From: Ruminiclostridium josui JCM 17888
GTDB taxonomy: Bacteria; Bacillota; Clostridia; Acetivibrionales; DSM-1351
Assembly: GCF_000526495.1 (NCBI RefSeq)
Contig: NZ_JAGE01000001.1
Span: 2,600,001 to 2,664,000 of the forward strand
DNA length: 64,000 nucleotides
Direction: 5' to 3'
Made by a program: the position numbers and the translations under genes. This document shows, one piece after another, positions 16,801 through 24,139 of this stretch. The notes below the pieces were generated by a model. It did no database searches. It was not told the DNA's origin and worked only from the letters and a program-made list of their open reading frames with translations. Numbering within the stretch: the stretch's first letter is position 1; every line of letters begins with the position of its first letter.

Positions 16801-16838
16801 TAAAAATGATTATGCCGAAAGGCTTATGGAGGCTTAAT

Positions 16839-17561
16839 GTGAAACTAATATGTTATTTATCCAACGGATACCCAACAATAGAGTCCAGTATAACAATGGC
16901 TAAGGACTATATTGATGCAGGCTGTGATATAATCGAGGTAGATTTTCCTTCCTCTGATCCCTACCTTGAAGGTGAATATATCGCAAATAGAATGAAAGAA
17001 GCTCTTACTGCCTGCAATGACTACGAAAAGTACATGGATGGAATTGTAGAGATAAAAAACAGTCATCCCAATACAAAATTCATTTTATTGTCATACGAAA
17101 ATACAATTCTTGAGATTGGTGTTGACCGTTTTATAAAATTCTGTGTTGATAACAATATGATGGACCTTATCTATGTGGGAAGAGACAATCAAGAAGTTAA
17201 GAGCAAGCTTATTGCCAACGGAATAAAAATTTCCTGCTATGTTCAATTCCACATGGACGAAAATGAAATTAAGGCGGCAGTTGAGTCCAACGGATTTGTT
17301 TACATGCAGGCAAAGCCGACTACCAACAACGTTAATCCAAAATTCCCAACCCTCAAGGATTGTATAGGTCATTTGAAGAGTCTGGGAATAAAAAGGGAGA
17401 TATACTGCGGTGTAGGTATATACGCACCCGAAGACATAAAAATGGCTAAAGAAGCCGGAGCTGACGGTGTTTTTGTAGGAAGTACTGTACTGAAGCTTCA
17501 CACAGATATACCAAAAATGAAAGAAACAATTGCTTTGTTTAAAAAGACCTGCAACGAATAA
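16839..17561 (+). CDS. TrpA-like TIM-barrel enzyme without a TrpB partner
   Basis: About 240 residues from the GTG at 16839, chosen because TGGAGG lies six bases before it; an upstream in-frame ATG at 16806 has no good site. The protein aligns with tryptophan synthase alpha chain over its length. The catalytic Glu of TrpA (E49) is kept in IIEVDFPSSDP (E33), but Asp60 is replaced by Glu in DPYLEG (E44). The phosphate-binding loops GVGIYAPEDI and VFVGSTVLKL are conserved. The segment carrying TrpA Tyr175 and loop 6 is changed to MQAKPTTNNVN. No trpB or other trp gene is near. I infer a retro-aldol-type lyase on a phosphorylated sugar linked to the nucleoside pathway upstream. A strong bidirectional terminator follows. 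Confidence 0.82.
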   Translation: MKLICYLSNGYPTIESSITMAKDYIDAGCDIIEVDFPSSDPYLEGEYIANRMKEALTACNDYEKYMDGIVEIKNSHPNTKFILLSYENTILEIGVDRFIKFCVDNNMMDLIYVGRDNQEVKSKLIANGIKISCYVQFHMDENEIKAAVESNGFVYMQAKPTTNNVNPKFPTLKDCIGHLKSLGIKREIYCGVGIYAPEDIKMAKEAGADGVFVGSTVLKLHTDIPKMKETIALFKKTCNE

Positions 17562-17682: not shown

Positions 17683-18390
17683 TCATTTTCTGTCATATGA
17701 AAATTTTGTACTGTTTAGAAGTTTTCTTCTCCCGCCAGTCCGCGAGGTAAGCCTTTGAAAGTAAGTACCGGCTCTGCATCTACGAAATAATCCTAAGCTT
17801 GATATACTTATCAAAGTCTTTTTTTGGATATAGATAACGTTGGGAATCTTTATAATGATGTTATGGGAATTTTGAGGTGAAATTTTCTGTTCTAGACAAA
17901 CTAATCCTATGGGCTCAATCTTGTTTAATAAAACTGATTTTGTAGTATCTTCAACTATCTTGTTATTGCTACTTGTATGCAATTCTTTAAGGCTATCATA
18001 ATTAGAATCAGAACAATTTTCCAAATGGTATGATAATTCAAGACTATCTTTTAAAATATTTTCTACTTCATCAATTTTAAGTAAGTGTTGTTTTGTTTCA
18101 TCTGTTAAGTATGATCCTTTGATATATTCCTTAATTTCATACATAAATTTATCCAGAAGTATTTTATATCCTTTACTGCTAGTTTCCTGTATTTTGGTAT
18201 ACAAAACATTGACAATATCGTTGTAATGTTTTTGAGTAGGTTTAGACACACCTCTTACCCATTTACTTACGATTGATTGATCCAAATAATACTGCACATT
18301 CATTGAATCCAGTAGATCCTTGTAACGGAGGTTTAGTGATTTAAGAGTTATTCGTAATAATTCATTAAAGCAAAAATTCTCTCTGTTCAT
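17683..18390 (-). CDS. Putative HTH regulator divergent from the RiPP cluster
   Basis: A 235-residue protein. Residues 5-65 look like a Cro/CI-type helix-turn-helix: LDQSIVSKWVRGVSKPTQKH resembles the recognition-helix region of XRE proteins. The middle is charged and helical, with no recognisable ligand domain. The last 35 residues (FRRCRAGTYFQRLTSRTGGRR and on) are arginine-rich and unlike the rest, suggesting a shifted frame or a recently acquired tail. Start ATG at 18390 is preceded by GGAGAGGTG. Its position, divergent from the peptide-modification operon, suggests it controls that operon, perhaps by the palindrome at 18451-18463. The role is inference and the family assignment tentative. 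Confidence 0.55.
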   Translation of the reverse strand: MNRENFCFNELLRITLKSLNLRYKDLLDSMNVQYYLDQSIVSKWVRGVSKPTQKHYNDIVNVLYTKIQETSSKGYKILLDKFMYEIKEYIKGSYLTDETKQHLLKIDEVENILKDSLELSYHLENCSDSNYDSLKELHTSSNNKIVEDTTKSVLLNKIEPIGLVCLEQKISPQNSHNIIIKIPNVIYIQKKTLISISSLGLFRRCRAGTYFQRLTSRTGGRRKLLNSTKFSYDRK

Positions 18391-18450
18391 AGCGGCACCT
18401 CTCCTGTTTTTTATATATTACAGCGTCACGTACTATAATAATTAATTATA

Positions 18451-18463
18451 TACAAAATTTGTA
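18451..18463. promoter_or_regulatory. Candidate operator in the divergent RiPP/regulator intergenic region
   Basis: TACAAA-A-TTTGTA is a perfect 13-bp palindrome. A partial copy (CTACAAATAAATTT) follows near 18478-18491. It lies about 60 bp upstream of the regulator and about 170 bp upstream of the first radical SAM gene, in an otherwise featureless AT-rich spacer. Confidence 0.4.
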
Positions 18464-18630
18464 AATAAATCAAATTTCTACAAATAAATTTCACATTTAA
18501 TTCAAGTTTAATTCCTCGACTAGTGCTAATTAGTGTATTAAACTACAATTGTGTTTTTACCTAGGATGGTTTTGCATTTTTAATTTTGTGTTGAGAACTT
18601 ATGCAAAGTATAGAGAAAAGGAGAAATCCA

Positions 18631-19911
18631 ATGGATAAAAGGTATAGATTTACGGAAGATTCAAGGATTATCACTAATAATGATAGAGTACTTATTGTAA
18701 ACAGAGACAACGGGTCCTGGCTAAAAATATCGAAGCAATGTTATGATGTTCTGACTCTTGGAATTCAACACAACCTTACAATAAATGAGTTATTAGAAAG
18801 TCTTGCAGATGATGAGGATAGGGACTACTTTAATAAATTGTTTGAAAAACTGATAAATATGGAACTGATGACTGATGAAATCAGTATTGAAGAAGGTAAA
18901 GTTCATGGCATAAAAAAAATTGACCAGATATATTTCGCATTAACCAACCGATGTAACCTCCGATGTATTCACTGCTGCATCAATGCCGGACAGGAAGCTG
19001 ATAGTGAAACCTTATCAACTGGACAGGTGTTATCCGCAATTGACAAAATTTTAACTGTGAATCCTGCAAATATAGTTTTTAGCGGCGGAGAGCCGATGTT
19101 AAGAGAAGACCTTTTTGAGATACTTGAGTATACTGCTCAAAGATATAATGGGAAAATAACACTTGCAACTAATGGAACTCTTATTAATGAAGAAAATGTA
19201 CATAAATTAACCGAATTATGTTATCAGATAGATATAAGCCTGGATGGCGTAGATGAAGAGTCCTGTTCAATAATTAGAGGCTCAGGTGTATTTGATAAAG
19301 TAATGAAAAGTGTAAGGCTTCTTCAGAATAATGAATTTAAGAATATCAGCCTTTCTATGGTAATAGGAGAAAAGACGCAGCATTTGGAAGAACAGTTTAA
19401 TTCACTCAATGCTTCTTTAGGAACTATACCTATGGTGAGAGTATTTTCTCCTATTGGGCGTGGTGAAATAAATGATTTAGCAATAATGGATAAAAAGAGT
19501 AAAACGACATTTATCCCGAAGAATTTCAAGCAGAAGTTATGTGAAAAGCCGATTAGGGGCTGCTCTTGCGGTGCTGGCTGTCACGAATTATATATAAATT
19601 CCGACGGGGGCATATACCCTTGCCCAAATCTGACTGATATCGATTACAAAATATGTAATATTAGTGAAATCAGTGACCTGACCTGCCTGAAAAATATTGA
19701 GAACGGCAAATTCCCGGCATTTAATAACTTATCCGATATAGAACCTGATAGTTTTTACAAGTGTAAGGAATGCAAAGTTAATGTGTTTTGCTGGACTTGC
19801 CTGAATGAGTTAAAAAGATTAAAAAACTGTGAAGACGATTTTGAAGAGAGATGCTCTGTTATAAAGCCTGTTCTAAACGAGTTAGTATGGGGAAAGGCAA
19901 TGGGCAGGTGA
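18631..19911 (+). CDS. Radical SAM/SPASM peptide-modifying enzyme with N-terminal RRE
   Basis: About 426 residues from the ATG at 18631, preceded by AAAAGGAG; an upstream in-frame ATG at 18601 lacks a site. Residues 1-85 resemble a PqqD-like RiPP recognition element that would bind the precursor leader. The radical SAM core has CNLRCIHC near residues 108-115, GGEPMLREDL and ATNGTLI. The C-terminal third holds a cysteine-rich SPASM domain (CSCGAGCHELYI, then DGGIYPCPNL, then CKECKVNVFCWTC) for auxiliary iron-sulfur clusters. It would install a thioether or carbon-carbon crosslink in a ribosomal peptide. It is followed four bases later by a second radical SAM gene, then the precursor, a protease and an exporter. 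Confidence 0.9.
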   Translation: MDKRYRFTEDSRIITNNDRVLIVNRDNGSWLKISKQCYDVLTLGIQHNLTINELLESLADDEDRDYFNKLFEKLINMELMTDEISIEEGKVHGIKKIDQIYFALTNRCNLRCIHCCINAGQEADSETLSTGQVLSAIDKILTVNPANIVFSGGEPMLREDLFEILEYTAQRYNGKITLATNGTLINEENVHKLTELCYQIDISLDGVDEESCSIIRGSGVFDKVMKSVRLLQNNEFKNISLSMVIGEKTQHLEEQFNSLNASLGTIPMVRVFSPIGRGEINDLAIMDKKSKTTFIPKNFKQKLCEKPIRGCSCGAGCHELYINSDGGIYPCPNLTDIDYKICNISEISDLTCLKNIENGKFPAFNNLSDIEPDSFYKCKECKVNVFCWTCLNELKRLKNCEDDFEERCSVIKPVLNELVWGKAMGR

Positions 19912-19915
19912 TTTT

Positions 19916-20944
19916 ATGAATTCGATGTTCTGGGTAACAACAAAATGTAATATGAGCTGCAAATACTGCTATGAGGGTGAAAAGAAGCCGGAGAAAGCAA
20001 TGACCGTTGATATTGCCGATAAAGCAATTGATTATACTATGAGGCACTATAGAGACTTACATACAAAGGAACCGCTAACTGTAGGATTTCATGGAGGGGA
20101 GCCATTGCTACAGTTTGAATTAATAAAATATATAATAAATAAATTCAGGGATTACTTTAAAAATGATGATGAAATGCTTAAATTCAGCATGACAACTAAT
20201 GGAACCCTCTTAACTGAAGAAATATCAAAGTATATATGTGACAATATACTTTATTTATCAATAAGCTTGGATGGTACAAAAAAAACACATGATACCAACA
20301 GGGTATTTCCAAACGGGGATGGTACTTATGAAATAGTAGCCGGAAAATTTATTGATTTACTGAAAAGAAGACCGGATATCCGTGTCCGTACGACATTTAA
20401 TATAAAAACAGTTGCAAGTCTTTTTGAGGACGTCAAGCATCTGATTGATATGGGATTCACGACAATTGTTCCGGCCCCAGATTTATTCAGCAATGATTGG
20501 GATACTGAGCATATGGAAATATTGTATTCTGAAATGAATAAAATAAAAGCTCTGCTTGATAAAAATGATAAAATTACGAACGTTAAGGTGGGAATTGTTG
20601 ATCCCACTTTTGAAGGTAGGTCTAAAGGAATATGTTTAGGCGGAATTAACGGAATACATATTGACCCTGAAGGCAATATGTACCCATGTATTCACACCAT
20701 AGGGCACGATGAGTTTATTGTGGGACATGTAAATACAGGCGTAATCAAAAAAAAGCTTGAAGAAATACATGCACTTTCAAAGATTGAGAATACTCAGTGT
20801 TCCGGCTGCAGCCGTTACAAATGTTGTGATGGTACAAGATGCAAAATCATAAATAAAATAATGACAGGTGATTATCATACGCCTTCTGCAGTTTTATGCG
20901 CTGTGGAGAATACTTATCACAGGTTCTTTAACAGTAAGTGTTAG
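19916..20944 (+). CDS. Second radical SAM/SPASM enzyme of the RiPP cluster
   Basis: A 342-residue radical SAM protein, short form without an RRE. The cluster motif CNMSCKYCYEG is at residues 12-22, close to anaerobic sulfatase-maturase-type enzymes; GFHGGEPLLQ and TTNGTLL follow. The SPASM region begins with GNMYPCIHTIGHDEF and continues with CSGCSRYKCCDGTRC. It lacks its own leader-binding domain and may rely on the partner encoded upstream, with which it is translationally close (spacing four bases). Two different radical SAM enzymes acting on one small precursor suggests two chemistries or two sites. Confidence 0.9.
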   Translation: MNSMFWVTTKCNMSCKYCYEGEKKPEKAMTVDIADKAIDYTMRHYRDLHTKEPLTVGFHGGEPLLQFELIKYIINKFRDYFKNDDEMLKFSMTTNGTLLTEEISKYICDNILYLSISLDGTKKTHDTNRVFPNGDGTYEIVAGKFIDLLKRRPDIRVRTTFNIKTVASLFEDVKHLIDMGFTTIVPAPDLFSNDWDTEHMEILYSEMNKIKALLDKNDKITNVKVGIVDPTFEGRSKGICLGGINGIHIDPEGNMYPCIHTIGHDEFIVGHVNTGVIKKKLEEIHALSKIENTQCSGCSRYKCCDGTRCKIINKIMTGDYHTPSAVLCAVENTYHRFFNSKC

Positions 20945-21042
20945 TTCTAATTAAGCAATCTTTTAGTCTTTACTGGCGCCATAAAATAAGTAACAGGCTA
21001 ATTTTATAGATTGATATTTCTTACATAAGAGGAGGTGAAAGT

Positions 21043-21198
21043 ATGTTAAAAATCGAAAAGATAACTGATAAGACTGAAGAACAGTTAGATGTAAAAGGAC
21101 AGGCTTGTGATATAGTAGGTTTACCACTTTCAAATTATGACTGTCTGCATGATTGTGCGTCTCAAGGCCATAATGCATACGTATCAACAAACCATTAA
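21043..21198 (+). CDS. Small RiPP precursor peptide, 51 residues
   Basis: ATG at 21043 follows an excellent AGAGGAGGTGAAAGT site. The peptide begins MLKIEKITDKTEEQLDVKGQ, a charged leader-like half, and continues with Cys22, then GLPLSNYDCLHDCASQGHN around Cys34 and Cys38, ending in VSTNH. The change from a Lys/Glu/Asp-rich first half to a Cys/Asn/Ser/His-rich second half is that of a RiPP leader and core. It lies directly after two radical SAM genes and before a protease and an exporter. A 17-pair stem-loop immediately downstream probably raises its transcript level. CxxxC and a third distant Cys do not match the sactipeptide, ranthipeptide or SCIFF patterns I know, so the class is open. It is shorter than usual gene-calling limits. 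Confidence 0.85.
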   Translation: MLKIEKITDKTEEQLDVKGQACDIVGLPLSNYDCLHDCASQGHNAYVSTNH

Positions 21199-21209
21199 GT
21201 AGTATCACA

Positions 21210-21248
21210 TATACTAGCTGTAGGTACTAAATACCTGCAGCTAGTATA
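21210..21248 (+). terminator. Stem-loop after the RiPP precursor gene
   Basis: Arms 21210-21226 and 21232-21248 form 17 pairs with one G-U and a five-base loop. Only a weak T-rich tail follows. It probably acts as a partial terminator or 3' stabiliser that lets the precursor be made in excess over the protease and exporter. Confidence 0.7.
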
Positions 21249-21307
21249 TTATCAAATTAGTAAATAAAACCAATTCTCTATAATTATCACTTGAGAGAGA
21301 TTAACGT

Positions 21308-21340
21308 ATGATAAAAGTCAAAAAAATGAATACAGACTAA
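21308..21340 (+). other. Ten-codon mini-ORF resembling the start of the RiPP leader
   Basis: ATG at 21308 with GAGAGAG upstream reads MIKVKKMNTD then stop. The pattern matches the first residues of the precursor (MLKIEKITD) in hydrophobic/charged order. It may be a relic of a second precursor gene or a translated leader for the protease gene that starts 20 bases later. Coding status is uncertain. Confidence 0.3.
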
Positions 21341-21360
21341 TTATTTCAAAGAGGTCTACA

Positions 21361-22404
21361 ATGGAAGATAGCTTAATAAAAAGGCAGTTAAAGGTTGCCG
21401 TAATAGACAGCGGAATTGACATTAATAATATCAATTTAGAAGAAAATATAATTGACGGTATTGCTTTTGAGTACGATACTCAAAAAGGCAAAGTAAATAA
21501 ATCTGACAATTATCAGGACGAAAATGGTCATGGAACATCCTGTGCTTCAATTATTAAAAGGGAAGTACCAGATGTAGGCATGTTTATTATAAAAATACTG
21601 GATAAAAACAATATGACTAATTCAAAAGCGTTGATAGCAGCGTTAAAATACCTTCTTGAAATGGATATCCGTCTTATTAATCTGAGTGTAGCTACTACTA
21701 GGGAATTATATCAGGAAGAACTCAAAAAAGTATGTGATGAATTATATGGGCAGGGAAAAATTCTGGTTTGTTCTTTGGAAAACAAAAGCGACAGTAGTTA
21801 TCCTGCAGTGTTTGATCATGTTATAGGTGTAAGGGGACGTGACTTTAATGGAAATGGAGATTACTGGTATAACAGAAACTATAGAATACAGTGTGTTGCA
21901 GATAGTATACCTGTTTTAGTGCCTAAAATAAACAATTTATTTGGTTTATTCGGAAAAAACAGTAAGGCAACGCCTTTAATGACAGGGAAGATTGCAAGAA
22001 TTCTATTTGATAAACCAAATATCGATTTTAAAGAACTTCAATTGCTCTTGGAGCAAACCGCGGTAAAAAACTTCTGGACTGAAGAAGATATCTATAAATA
22101 TTGTATTGAACCTGATGAAATGCAACAGGATAAGTACTACTGTTTTAAAGAAGAGATTAAAGAGCTTGCAGATATTATTGCCGAGACATTAAACTTAACG
22201 AGTGCTAATATGCCATTGCTCTATCAAAATATAAATTTAAGGCATCGGGAAATAGGGTTGAAACTTTCCGATTGCTTTGACCTGATAAAAAATATAGAAA
22301 AGGGGCTTAATATAAAATTAAACTATAACCAAATTAATCTTAACACATTCCGTACGTTATACACATTACTTGATTTTGTACTGGAGGCTAAAAGTATTGT
22401 TTAA
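21361..22404 (+). CDS. Subtilisin-like serine protease of the RiPP cluster
   Basis: A 347-residue S8-family protease without a signal peptide, so cytoplasmic. The triad is present: Asp in AVIDSGID (about residue 16), His in NGHGTSCAS (about 58) and Ser in GKNSKATPLM (about 200, the degenerate form of GTSMATP). The oxyanion Asn is probably that in SLENKSD. The last 110 residues form an extra helical domain not found in classical subtilases. By context it removes the leader of the 51-residue precursor before export; most lanthipeptide-type S8 processors are secreted, so an intracellular form coupled to an exporter is worth noting. Ribosome site AGAGG precedes the ATG. The exporter gene begins inside its last codons. 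Confidence 0.88.
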   Translation: MEDSLIKRQLKVAVIDSGIDINNINLEENIIDGIAFEYDTQKGKVNKSDNYQDENGHGTSCASIIKREVPDVGMFIIKILDKNNMTNSKALIAALKYLLEMDIRLINLSVATTRELYQEELKKVCDELYGQGKILVCSLENKSDSSYPAVFDHVIGVRGRDFNGNGDYWYNRNYRIQCVADSIPVLVPKINNLFGLFGKNSKATPLMTGKIARILFDKPNIDFKELQLLLEQTAVKNFWTEEDIYKYCIEPDEMQQDKYYCFKEEIKELADIIAETLNLTSANMPLLYQNINLRHREIGLKLSDCFDLIKNIEKGLNIKLNYNQINLNTFRTLYTLLDFVLEAKSIV

Positions 22405-24139
22405 ACAATTAAACGTGAATAATCTAAAAAGGTTTGGCAAAATGGTTTTTAAATATAAAAAAGATCAGTTTATTGCGATGCTTTTTATGATACTTAATGC
22501 ACTTCTTTCACTTGCACTGCCGTTTTTGATGATGAAAATAATTGATGAGGCTATTAGCAGCAAGGACATAATCTACCTTATAAAAATAATTCTGCTTTAT
22601 CTTGCAGTATTTGTCATCCAGAATATTTGTCAAGTATTTTCTGATTACATATATTCTCGTATAGGAAAAAAAATCATATTTGATTTAAAGTTGAAGATTT
22701 TAGACCATATAAGCAAGCTTTCAGGAAAATATTTTACAAATATGAAGACAGGGGAACTGTTAACAATTTTGGACGGGGATGTTTTCATTATTGAAGATGT
22801 AGCTACGAAGATGTTTTTCTCAATTCTTTCTGATATTCTTACATCGATTGTAATGTTTGTATTTCTTATAAGGCTGCAATTTGATTTGCTTGCTATAACA
22901 GTAGTATTGCAGGTGTTAATGCTGATTACTCAGCTTAAGTTCACAAAAATGATATCGTACAAAACTCAAAGTATAAGAAAAACGATGGGGAATCTATCAA
23001 ATGTTGTACAGGAGTTTATTGCAGGTATTATGCATATTGTAACATTAGATGCTAAAAAAAAGTTTTTTACTCAGTTCTTTTCTATAGGAAAAACCTATGT
23101 CAAGCAGGGGATAAATCTGGAAACTACTATGTCAGTAAGTATGGTATGTGCAAACCTGATCAGTACCATTGTAACGGTAGGTATATTGGGCTATGGGGGG
23201 TATAAGGTAATTATCGGAAGCATGACTATAGGAGGACTAATGGCATTTAACATGTATTCTCAAAGATTGTTGGTTCCGGTTATGCGGATTGCCCAGTCAA
23301 ATACCAGACTACAGAAGGCTCTGGTGTCAATTGACAGAATATTTGACGTATTGGATGAACCTTTGGATATAAAGCATAAAAAAAATTCAGTTAGGCCTAC
23401 AGAAAGCATAATTGGGAAAATTGATTTTCAAAAAGTATGTTTTTCATATGAAAGAGGAAAGGAAGTACTCCATGATATCAATTTGACTTTTGAGCCACAA
23501 AAAGTTACTGCTATTGTAGGTACTAGCGGTTCGGGAAAGTCCACTGTGTCCAAATTACTTCTTAGGCTCTGGGATACTGATAGTGGGCAGATATTATTGG
23601 ATGATCGGGATATAAAGGATTATAATCTTAAATTCTTGAGAAAGAATATATGCGTAATTACACAGGATACATTTTTATTTGATGATACGATATTGAATAA
23701 CCTTATACTTGGGAATAAAAATATTTCTACACAAACAATAACTGAAGCTGTAAAAAAGGCTGAGATTTACGATTTTATTATGTCACTTCCTGACCAGCTA
23801 AAAACAATTGTAGGTGAGCGTGGTGTAAAACTATCTGGAGGACAGAAACAGAGAATATCTATCGCAAGGGCTATTATAAAAAATTCTCCGATTATCATTT
23901 TTGACGAAGCAACAGCAGCTTTGGATAATATCTCCGAGAGAAATATTCTGAATAATTTAAAAGACTTTTTTGAAGGCAAAACAGTTATTTTTATTGCACA
24001 TAGATTATCAACCGTGAAGGAAGCAGATATTATTTATGTCATTGAAAATGGAGAAGTAGTGGAACTAGGCTCACATGAGACACTTTTAGATTTAAAGAAT
24101 GTCTATTATAAACTTTACAACAGGAAATTTACTGCATAA
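22397..24139 (+). CDS. ABC exporter of the RiPP cluster (fused membrane and ATPase domains)
   Basis: About 580 residues from the TTG at 22397 (TGGAGG nine bases before); it overlaps the protease gene by eight bases. Residues 10-310 carry six predicted transmembrane helices of the ABC_membrane type; the ATPase domain has GTSGSGKST near residue 375-383, LSGGQKQR and IIIFDEATAALD, and the H-loop IAHRLSTV. There is no N-terminal C39 peptidase domain, which fits the separate S8 protease encoded just upstream. It would act as a homodimer exporting the modified peptide. The cluster seems to end here: no self-immunity gene is recognisable downstream. Confidence 0.92.
   Translation: MFKQLNVNNLKRFGKMVFKYKKDQFIAMLFMILNALLSLALPFLMMKIIDEAISSKDIIYLIKIILLYLAVFVIQNICQVFSDYIYSRIGKKIIFDLKLKILDHISKLSGKYFTNMKTGELLTILDGDVFIIEDVATKMFFSILSDILTSIVMFVFLIRLQFDLLAITVVLQVLMLITQLKFTKMISYKTQSIRKTMGNLSNVVQEFIAGIMHIVTLDAKKKFFTQFFSIGKTYVKQGINLETTMSVSMVCANLISTIVTVGILGYGGYKVIIGSMTIGGLMAFNMYSQRLLVPVMRIAQSNTRLQKALVSIDRIFDVLDEPLDIKHKKNSVRPTESIIGKIDFQKVCFSYERGKEVLHDINLTFEPQKVTAIVGTSGSGKSTVSKLLLRLWDTDSGQILLDDRDIKDYNLKFLRKNICVITQDTFLFDDTILNNLILGNKNISTQTITEAVKKAEIYDFIMSLPDQLKTIVGERGVKLSGGQKQRISIARAIIKNSPIIIFDEATAALDNISERNILNNLKDFFEGKTVIFIAHRLSTVKEADIIYVIENGEVVELGSHETLLDLKNVYYKLYNRKFTA

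Follow-up and report, generated by a model that had tools for sequence, protein, structure and literature searches.

Gene organization of the cassette

The window analysed here is a 64,000-nucleotide stretch of Ruminiclostridium josui JCM 17888 (contig NZ_JAGE01000001.1, positions 2,600,001 to 2,664,000), whose host genome, of the class Clostridia, measures 4.47 Mb. It carries a row of five plus-strand genes encoding two radical S-adenosylmethionine (SAM) enzymes, hereafter rSAM_A and rSAM_B, a short precursor peptide, an S8 protease and an ATP-binding cassette (ABC) exporter. A TrpA-like gene lies on one side of the row and an rmlB-like gene on the other. The probable product of this cassette is a small peptide with chemical staples, of the ribosomally synthesized and post-translationally modified (RiPP) kind. 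The genes are as follows.

18631..19911, + strand: rSAM_A, radical SAM/SPASM peptide maturase with a predicted N-terminal domain resembling the RiPP recognition element (RRE); the open reading frame (ORF) was listed from 18601
19916..20944, + strand: rSAM_B, short radical SAM/SPASM enzyme without RRE, PF04055, CxxxCxxC at residue 11
21043..21198, + strand: precursor peptide, 51 residues, with Cys22, Cys34 and Cys38; leader 1-20, predicted core 21-51
21361..22404, + strand: S8 (subtilisin-type) protease, PF00082, Asp16/His57/Ser201
22397..24139, + strand: ABC exporter, membrane and ATPase parts on one chain, PF00664 and PF00005; ORF listed from 22370

Two start sites were revised. Because AGGAG precedes the second in-frame ATG of rSAM_A, at 18631, the enzyme is probably 426 residues long rather than 436. 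The exporter ORF was listed from a TTG at 22370, and an in-frame TTG at 22397 with GGAGG ahead of it is the likelier start. With that start the protease and exporter genes share 8 bases (22397-22404), an overlap that suggests coupled translation. The precursor gene has a strong ribosome-binding site, AGGAGG. The initial annotation had named these genes as contiguous in this order, with a 51-residue precursor bearing Cys22, Cys34 and Cys38; apart from the two starts, the ORFs, the Pfam matches and the precursor sequence agree with it.

Conservation of the cassette in Clostridia

When rSAM_B alone was used as the query, 16 of 391 genomes of the class matched at E <= 1e-40. Three of the six genomes fetched besides the window carry the cassette (G329, G328 and G033), and in the fetched stretches of G208, G269 and G338, rSAM_B matches at 34-35% stand without any rSAM_A or S8 match. 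A profile was built from four rSAM_B sequences and applied at E <= 1e-70. Within the order of G328 it recovered 4 of 225 genomes, within that of G329 11 of 198, and within the order to which the window belongs 2 of 58. The family of G329, with 71 genomes searched, gave 14 (10 of them shared with the G329-order search), and a phylum-wide sample returned the window itself (1/398). The total is 21 distinct genomes. The cassette is patchy, since the profile found no match in the 10 remaining genomes of the genus.

All 21 loci were read with one uniform procedure. rSAM_A stands beside rSAM_B in every genome (21/21), and a second rSAM_A is present in seven. The S8 protease gene was found in 20 of 21 genomes and a precursor gene of the CxxDC type in 20 of 21 loci. 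The stretches read contain an ABC exporter on one chain in all but two cases (19/21), namely G767, whose stretch ends early, and G838. In four members, identity to the window enzyme is 37-45% for rSAM_B and 32-43% for rSAM_A. The two-radical-SAM RiPP-type cassette proposed in the initial annotation is thus conserved across 21 genomes, and the neighbourhood search it recommended has yielded, through the rSAM_B profile, a family that it had missed, together with a CxxDC marker motif and a Gln cleavage motif that it had likewise overlooked.

Further searches were made around this set. A profile scan of named genomes returned at least 80 loci, among which L035 (Clostridium saudiense) was recognised as a cassette with the same precursor as G328. 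Searching 40 genomes with the precursor alone gave 3 weak matches, in 2 other genomes, and the ORFs of L004 show no cassette genes. Phage records gave 2 weak rSAM_B matches. The G838 locus (L143 6343-12083) encodes a 48-residue CENDC peptide, an S8 protease without the C-terminal domain seen elsewhere and an rSAM_A of great length, a distant version with which the family may reach its limit.

Precursor peptides share a CxxDC motif

The leader of the window precursor, residues 1-20, ends in D-V-K-G-Q. Its C34-L-H-D-C38 motif leaves Cys22 outside, and the predicted 31-residue core, residues 21-51, reads ACDIVGLPLSNYDCLHDCASQGHNAYVSTNH. The calculated mass of this core is 3316.43 Da without modification and 3314.42, 3312.40 or 3310.39 Da with one, two or three thioethers. 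From 20 of the 21 loci, 24 distinct precursors were obtained, each carrying C-x-x-[D/N]-C together with one or more other Cys; these precursors were themselves picked by the C..[DN]C pattern. The variable motif residue is Asp in 22 of the 24 and Asn in the other 2. The peptides share the start of the leader, with a family consensus of KIxKIxxKxE, and aromatic or His residues stand at the end of many cores. Several loci hold more than one precursor (three in G824; two each in G797, G515 and G829). The host genome of the window yielded no second precursor of the CxxDC kind at E <= 1. Four or five Cys occur in 6 of the 24, and 3 of these carry an overlapping double motif, CKY[DN]CCxDC.

As a control for chance, all small ORFs (35-95 residues) of the 21 stretches were scanned for C..[DN]C with at least three Cys. 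The pattern occurs in 27 of 972, comprising 25 cassette precursors and 2 stray ORFs, as against a mean of 2.4 and a maximum of 6 in 200 residue shuffles.

The nearest Cys outside the motif lies either 7-16 residues before it, as in the window's group, or 12-20 residues after it, in the other group. Core layout follows the rSAM_B lineage, because this label changes only 3 times on the rSAM_B tree over 20 labelled genomes, a value reached by 2 of 500 label shuffles. On that tree, 7 of 18 inner branches are open and G838, G579 and G703 form long rows; the closest grouping of the window is with G329, G797 and G824 (support 97/96).

None of the 24 precursors was recognised by Pfam-A or NCBIfam 20, the stray hits having E values of 0.042 (one, NCBIfam) and 0.027-0.048 (three, Pfam), in keeping with the initial annotation's statement that the precursor's Cys pattern fits no class known to it. 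In the literature, combining 'CXXDC' with 'radical SAM' gave 0 matches in a search that lay mostly outside subscription journals. Among the matches listed, no title or abstract opening dealt with the precursor motif or the gene set; these were mostly open-access items, so that novelty is not proven by them. The best reading is a RiPP family unnamed in the libraries and literature listings searched.

Two radical SAM enzymes of different architecture

Both enzymes match PF04055, rSAM_A above the cut-off, and in both the Pfam SPASM score falls just below its cut-off. The best NCBIfam model is StsB for rSAM_A (NF045574, 140 bits against a cut-off of 625) and PapB for rSAM_B (NF047865, 228.9 bits against 340); rSAM_B also scores 162.8 bits against the SCIFF maturase model TIGR03974, whose cut-off is 425. 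The metal-ligand pattern is intact throughout. The CxxxCxxC motif and six SPASM Cys are present in 28 of 28 rSAM_A copies, with a seventh SPASM Cys in 27 of 28, and all 21 rSAM_B copies have 3 radical-SAM and 7 SPASM Cys. PDB entry 5wgg, which we take to be CteB, is the best structural-database sequence match of rSAM_A and rSAM_B alike. Its source paper, by its title, concerns thioether formation. SkfB is also among the PDB matches of rSAM_A.

The two enzymes differ at the N-terminus. As judged from the sequences, an N-terminal docking domain would not fit into rSAM_B, because CxxxCxxC sits at residue 11-37 in 21 of 21 copies; rSAM_A, with the motif at residue 93-133 in 28 of 28, has the space for one. 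In the AlphaFold2 (AF2) model of the window rSAM_A, the N-terminus forms three strands and three helices in beta3-alpha3 order, and residues 1-80 have predicted local distance difference test (pLDDT) values of 73-88 by blocks of ten, against a whole-model mean of 52.5. The rSAM_A profile aligns from position 20 to the N-terminus of 5wgg. Foldseek returned RiPP maturases as top matches, at a template-modelling (TM) score of only 0.3-0.35, and no Pfam domain model matched the region. For the RRE-bearing enzyme of the initial annotation, the modelled N-terminus of the window copy and its alignment point to a putative RRE-like domain, which no Pfam model matches.

S8 protease, leader cleavage and export

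The protease matches PF00082 with 73.7 bits against a cut-off of 21.8; its nearest NCBIfam model is QhpE (NF049966), at 105.5 bits against a cut-off of 165. The catalytic Asp is already at residue 16, leaving no signal peptide or prodomain. By eye, the catalytic triad aligns in 20 of 20 copies and the oxyanion Asn is seen in 15 of 20. According to PMC10885120, the cytoplasmic leader protease ElxP, also of the S8 type, has (D/E)-(L/V)-X2-Q as its recognition site. A comparable [DE][LVIM]xxQ motif, which in the window is D16-V-K-G-Q20, lies ahead of the first Cys in 16 of 24 precursors, compared with a mean of 1.97 and a maximum of 7 in 2000 leader shuffles; the relaxed form [LVIM]xxQ occurs in 20 of 24 (shuffles, mean 4.6 and maximum 12). 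No Peptidase_C39 was found in the ABC exporter among the 19 Pfam families listed. Cytoplasmic cleavage after Gln20 would be the natural reading, because of the Gln motif, a protease that begins with its catalytic domain, an exporter without a peptidase domain and the parallel with the Qhp system.

A C-terminal domain follows in 19 of 20 protease copies; 18 of these were aligned, the G829 copy being omitted as nearly identical to that of G788. In one hhalign comparison with acyl-carrier domains, drawn from 13 of 30 carrier loci (the other 17 showed stops in the fixed reading frame used), the alignment reached a probability of 86.4 (E 4.7e-6), against 2.5 for the best of 60 column shuffles and 0.2 for the reversed control. 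Pfam gave PP-binding for 1 of the 18 domains (E 0.062) and DnaD_N for 2 of 18 (best E 0.0092). In the alignment of the 18, inspected by eye, no phosphopantetheine Ser is conserved at the carrier position. A working phosphopantetheine carrier was rejected: the domain is fold-like in that one test, but the carrier Ser is missing. Our guess is that it binds the substrate or the radical SAM enzymes.

Plasmid loci and neighbouring genes

The cassette was also found on plasmids, which played no part in defining the CxxDC motif. A plasmid search with rSAM_B returned 3 records, two Paraclostridium sordellii plasmids and Clostridioides difficile p_TW11; the same three headed the 12 records obtained with rSAM_A and made up 3 of the 4 obtained with the S8 protease. 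On all three, S8 and ABC genes adjoin the radical SAM genes, which number three, three and two. Each plasmid encodes a small peptide, annotated as 'hypothetical protein', that contains the motif (3/3) as CKYDCCHDC, CLVDC or CWNDC, with DLEVQ, EVEVQ or EVNGQ ahead of the first Cys. The gene order on p_TW11 is that of the window: rSAM, rSAM, peptide, S8, ABC.

Divergent from rSAM_A on p_TW11 lies a murJ gene (L179 2907-4430; 340.7 bits, cut-off 235.55). No other cassette stretch contains a murJ match at E <= 1e-3, although two loci without known cassette status matched. Based on this one record, the plasmid-borne murJ is a candidate self-resistance gene and a hint to the target.

Of the 21 loci, 14 have FtsX-type permeases and a further 5 have another ABC ATPase. 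By analogy these genes, present in 19 of 21 loci, look like immunity; the 17-kb stretch of G033 has neither. LytTR and/or sensor-kinase genes were detected by BLAST in 8 of 21 stretches. AgrB was confirmed in G797, and AgrB and AgrD are annotated on both P. sordellii plasmids. In G824 (L140 4652-7361), the FtsX-type gene is split over three ORFs, and three precursors remain.

Proposed pathway and alternative explanations

The computed results (genes, co-occurrence, motif conservation and intact active-site residues) form the ground from which we infer bond chemistry, order of steps, cleavage site and activity. We consider it likely that the cassette makes and exports one ribosomal thioether peptide, through leader docking, thioether formation by the radical SAM enzymes, S8 cleavage after Gln20 and ABC export, and that the product is a bacteriocin. 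The leader, with its family consensus KIxKIxxKxE, would dock on the RRE-like domain of rSAM_A. rSAM_A and rSAM_B, probably as one complex, would then form thioethers from Cys sulfurs. A Cys-to-Asp bond of the PapB/QhpD type would have Asp37 of CxxDC as its candidate acceptor, and a further bond would start from the one Cys that the motif does not include, which in the window is Cys22. The S8 protease would cut in the cytoplasm after Gln20 and free the 31-residue core, which the exporter, having no peptidase domain of its own, would carry out of the cell. The product would most likely be a narrow-spectrum bacteriocin.

The chemistry is modelled on characterised enzymes. According to PMC9413430, PapB joins the Cys sulfur to the C-beta of Asp and accepts spacings other than CX3D. 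PMC7876137 describes QhpD as making Cys-to-Asp/Glu thioethers, after which QhpE removes the leader before ABC export. A Cys-Asp bond at CX2D spacing is our leading guess, because PapB and QhpD join Cys to Asp and the Asp of CxxDC is conserved. The initial annotation had gone further and concluded from two distinct enzymes that there are two modifications, a step that is unestablished. In thuricin CD, two radical SAM enzymes form one tight complex in which only one radical SAM activity is strictly essential (PMC12093266). A complex fits at least as well here, because rSAM_B lacks docking room, rSAM_A has it and the two co-occur in 21 of 21 loci; this constant pairing suggests that they work together, like TrnC/TrnD.

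Several observations weigh against the proposed pathway. The CX2D spacing departs from the native CX3D of PapB, and two precursors have Asn instead of Asp. Of the 24 precursors, 8 lack the strict Gln site and 4 the relaxed one, so it is no universal rule; the oxyanion Asn is missing in 5 of 20 protease copies, which may weaken these. The S8 gene is absent from G692 (15 kb fetched), G764 has all the enzymes but no recognisable precursor, and G838, the most distant member, has a protease without the C-terminal domain and no exporter in its stretch. The AF2 models are poor overall, with mean pLDDT of 50.2 and 52.5. Within about 8 kb on either side of the window cassette there is no FtsX or second ABC gene of the kinds seen elsewhere, and self-protection is unexplained there.

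Could the cassette instead encode a sactipeptide of known type, in which rSAM_A alone links Cys to C-alpha with rSAM_B assisting, as in TrnC/TrnD? This deserves serious attention but is on the whole doubtful. The best named relative of rSAM_A, at 140 bits, is the sactipeptide maturase StsB, SkfB is among its PDB matches, and thuricin CD likewise needs two radical SAM enzymes as one complex (PMC12093266). Yet the StsB score is far below the cut-off of 625, and the Trn peptides have CX3CX3C and a GG leader end (PMC3132745), as opposed to the CxxDC and Gln site of the present precursors, in which the third Cys stands before or after the motif. rSAM_B is moreover as conserved as rSAM_A (37-45% against 32-43%), which would be odd for a mere helper, with TrnC/TrnD compared here by description. 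A signalling or regulatory peptide that reports cell density, rather than a bacteriocin, is rather unlikely. Agr-type or LytTR/sensor-kinase genes do adjoin the cassette in some members, but the Agr genes have their own signal (AgrD on both P. sordellii plasmids) and are likelier controllers of the cassette; the FtsX-type or other additional ABC genes (19 of 21 loci) resemble immunity, and multiple precursors with the same motif per locus fit antimicrobial variants.

We regard as quite improbable a metal- or redox-binding peptide in which CxxDC binds metal and the radical SAM enzymes carry out epimerisation or C-C bond formation rather than thioether formation. CX3C plus Asp could bind metal, and the aromatic or His core ends might undergo C-C or ether chemistry, but the nearest characterised relatives of rSAM_B (PapB and PDB 5wgg) are thioether formers. 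That the genes are merely adjacent by chance has practically no likelihood left: rSAM_A, rSAM_B and S8 occur together in 20 of 21 genomes and on 3 of 3 plasmids, a co-occurrence that refutes chance co-location. Beyond the thioether bacteriocin pathway that we prefer, a bolder extension can be drawn from the p_TW11 locus, namely a new RiPP antibiotic class, spread patchily through Clostridia and present on plasmids too, with a CxxDC bicyclic staple made jointly by an RRE-bearing and an RRE-less enzyme, the side of the third Cys varying by clade, which acts on the lipid II flippase MurJ and for which the p_TW11 murJ provides self-resistance. We offer this full version as a long shot.

Other features of the window

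21209..21249, + strand: perfect 18-bp hairpin without T-run, after the precursor gene (RNA fold)
17683..18390, - strand: divergent 235-residue ORF, possible regulator, without family match and not conserved with the cassette

The hairpin has a folding energy of -27 kcal/mol (z -6.05, equalled by 0 of 200 shuffles) and was not called by the terminator scan. It may be a partial terminator or a 3' stabiliser that keeps the precursor message abundant. The regulator of the initial annotation exists as a divergent ORF, although its role is putative: no Pfam, NCBIfam or PADLOC model matched it, and no counterpart was found in the other cassette stretches. Weak relatives, with 27% similarity over the first ~130 residues, occur in 2 genomes besides its own among 58 searched. 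It may be a truncated regulator, because these relatives are frames of 428-446 residues. Its C-terminus is oddly basic. Positions 16806-17561 encode the TrpA-like protein, which scores 99.5 bits, just below the TIGR00262 cut-off of 102.35; the adjacent genes scanned are not trp genes.

Significance and comparison with known systems

An orphan cluster becomes a family that one motif suffices to find, with a predicted core, cleavage site and masses. Its members are scattered and look as if they make bacterial peptide antibiotics of an uncharacterised kind. If the proposed chemistry is right, two enzymes and a sequence-specific cytoplasmic protease make up a compact thioether system. The constant pairing of a docking-domain and a non-docking enzyme bears on how general the complex logic of thuricin CD is. 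The plasmid members suggest mobile Clostridia bacteriocins, and the single extra murJ hints at what the target may be.

The ranthipeptide system PapB/PapA of Paenibacillus is close in that PapB is the nearest model of rSAM_B and Cys and Asp are closely spaced. It differs in its repeated CX3D, where the present precursors have CX2D within CxxDC, and here rSAM_B is regularly accompanied by an S8 protease and by a second radical SAM enzyme, which has an RRE-like domain. The CteB/SCIFF maturases are related through 5wgg, the best PDB match of both enzymes; unlike the present cassette, they comprise one radical SAM enzyme with its own RRE and a six-Cys precursor. Assignment to the StsB, PapB, SCIFF or thuricin CD family was rejected under the models or motifs that define them, on scores below the cut-offs and missing motifs.

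Thuricin CD (TrnC/TrnD) resembles the cassette in having two radical SAM enzymes per cluster and three Cys in the Trn peptides, and ruminococcin C, judging from a search listing, is also a two-radical-SAM sactipeptide cluster. In the available part of PMC3132745, the Trn peptides are described with CX3CX3C and GG, in contrast to CxxDC and the Gln site, and no S8 protease is named for clostridial thuricin-like clusters, whereas one is present here. The window precursor has neither CX3CX3C nor a GG leader end, and a third Cys four residues past the CX3C pair is not conserved among the 24 precursors, occurring only in the tandem CKY[DN]CCxDC forms. ElxP of epilancin 15X, likened by description and not by sequence, is a cytoplasmic S8 protease with a (D/E)-(L/V)-X2-Q site (PMC10885120) but belongs to a lanthipeptide pathway. 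In the Qhp system, as described in PMC7876137, QhpC is an enzyme subunit, one radical SAM enzyme is named, and the score of our protease lies below the QhpE cut-off; even so, QhpD (radical SAM), QhpE (S8) and QhpF (ABC exporter) follow the same logic of thioether formation, cytoplasmic leader removal and export that we propose for the cassette.

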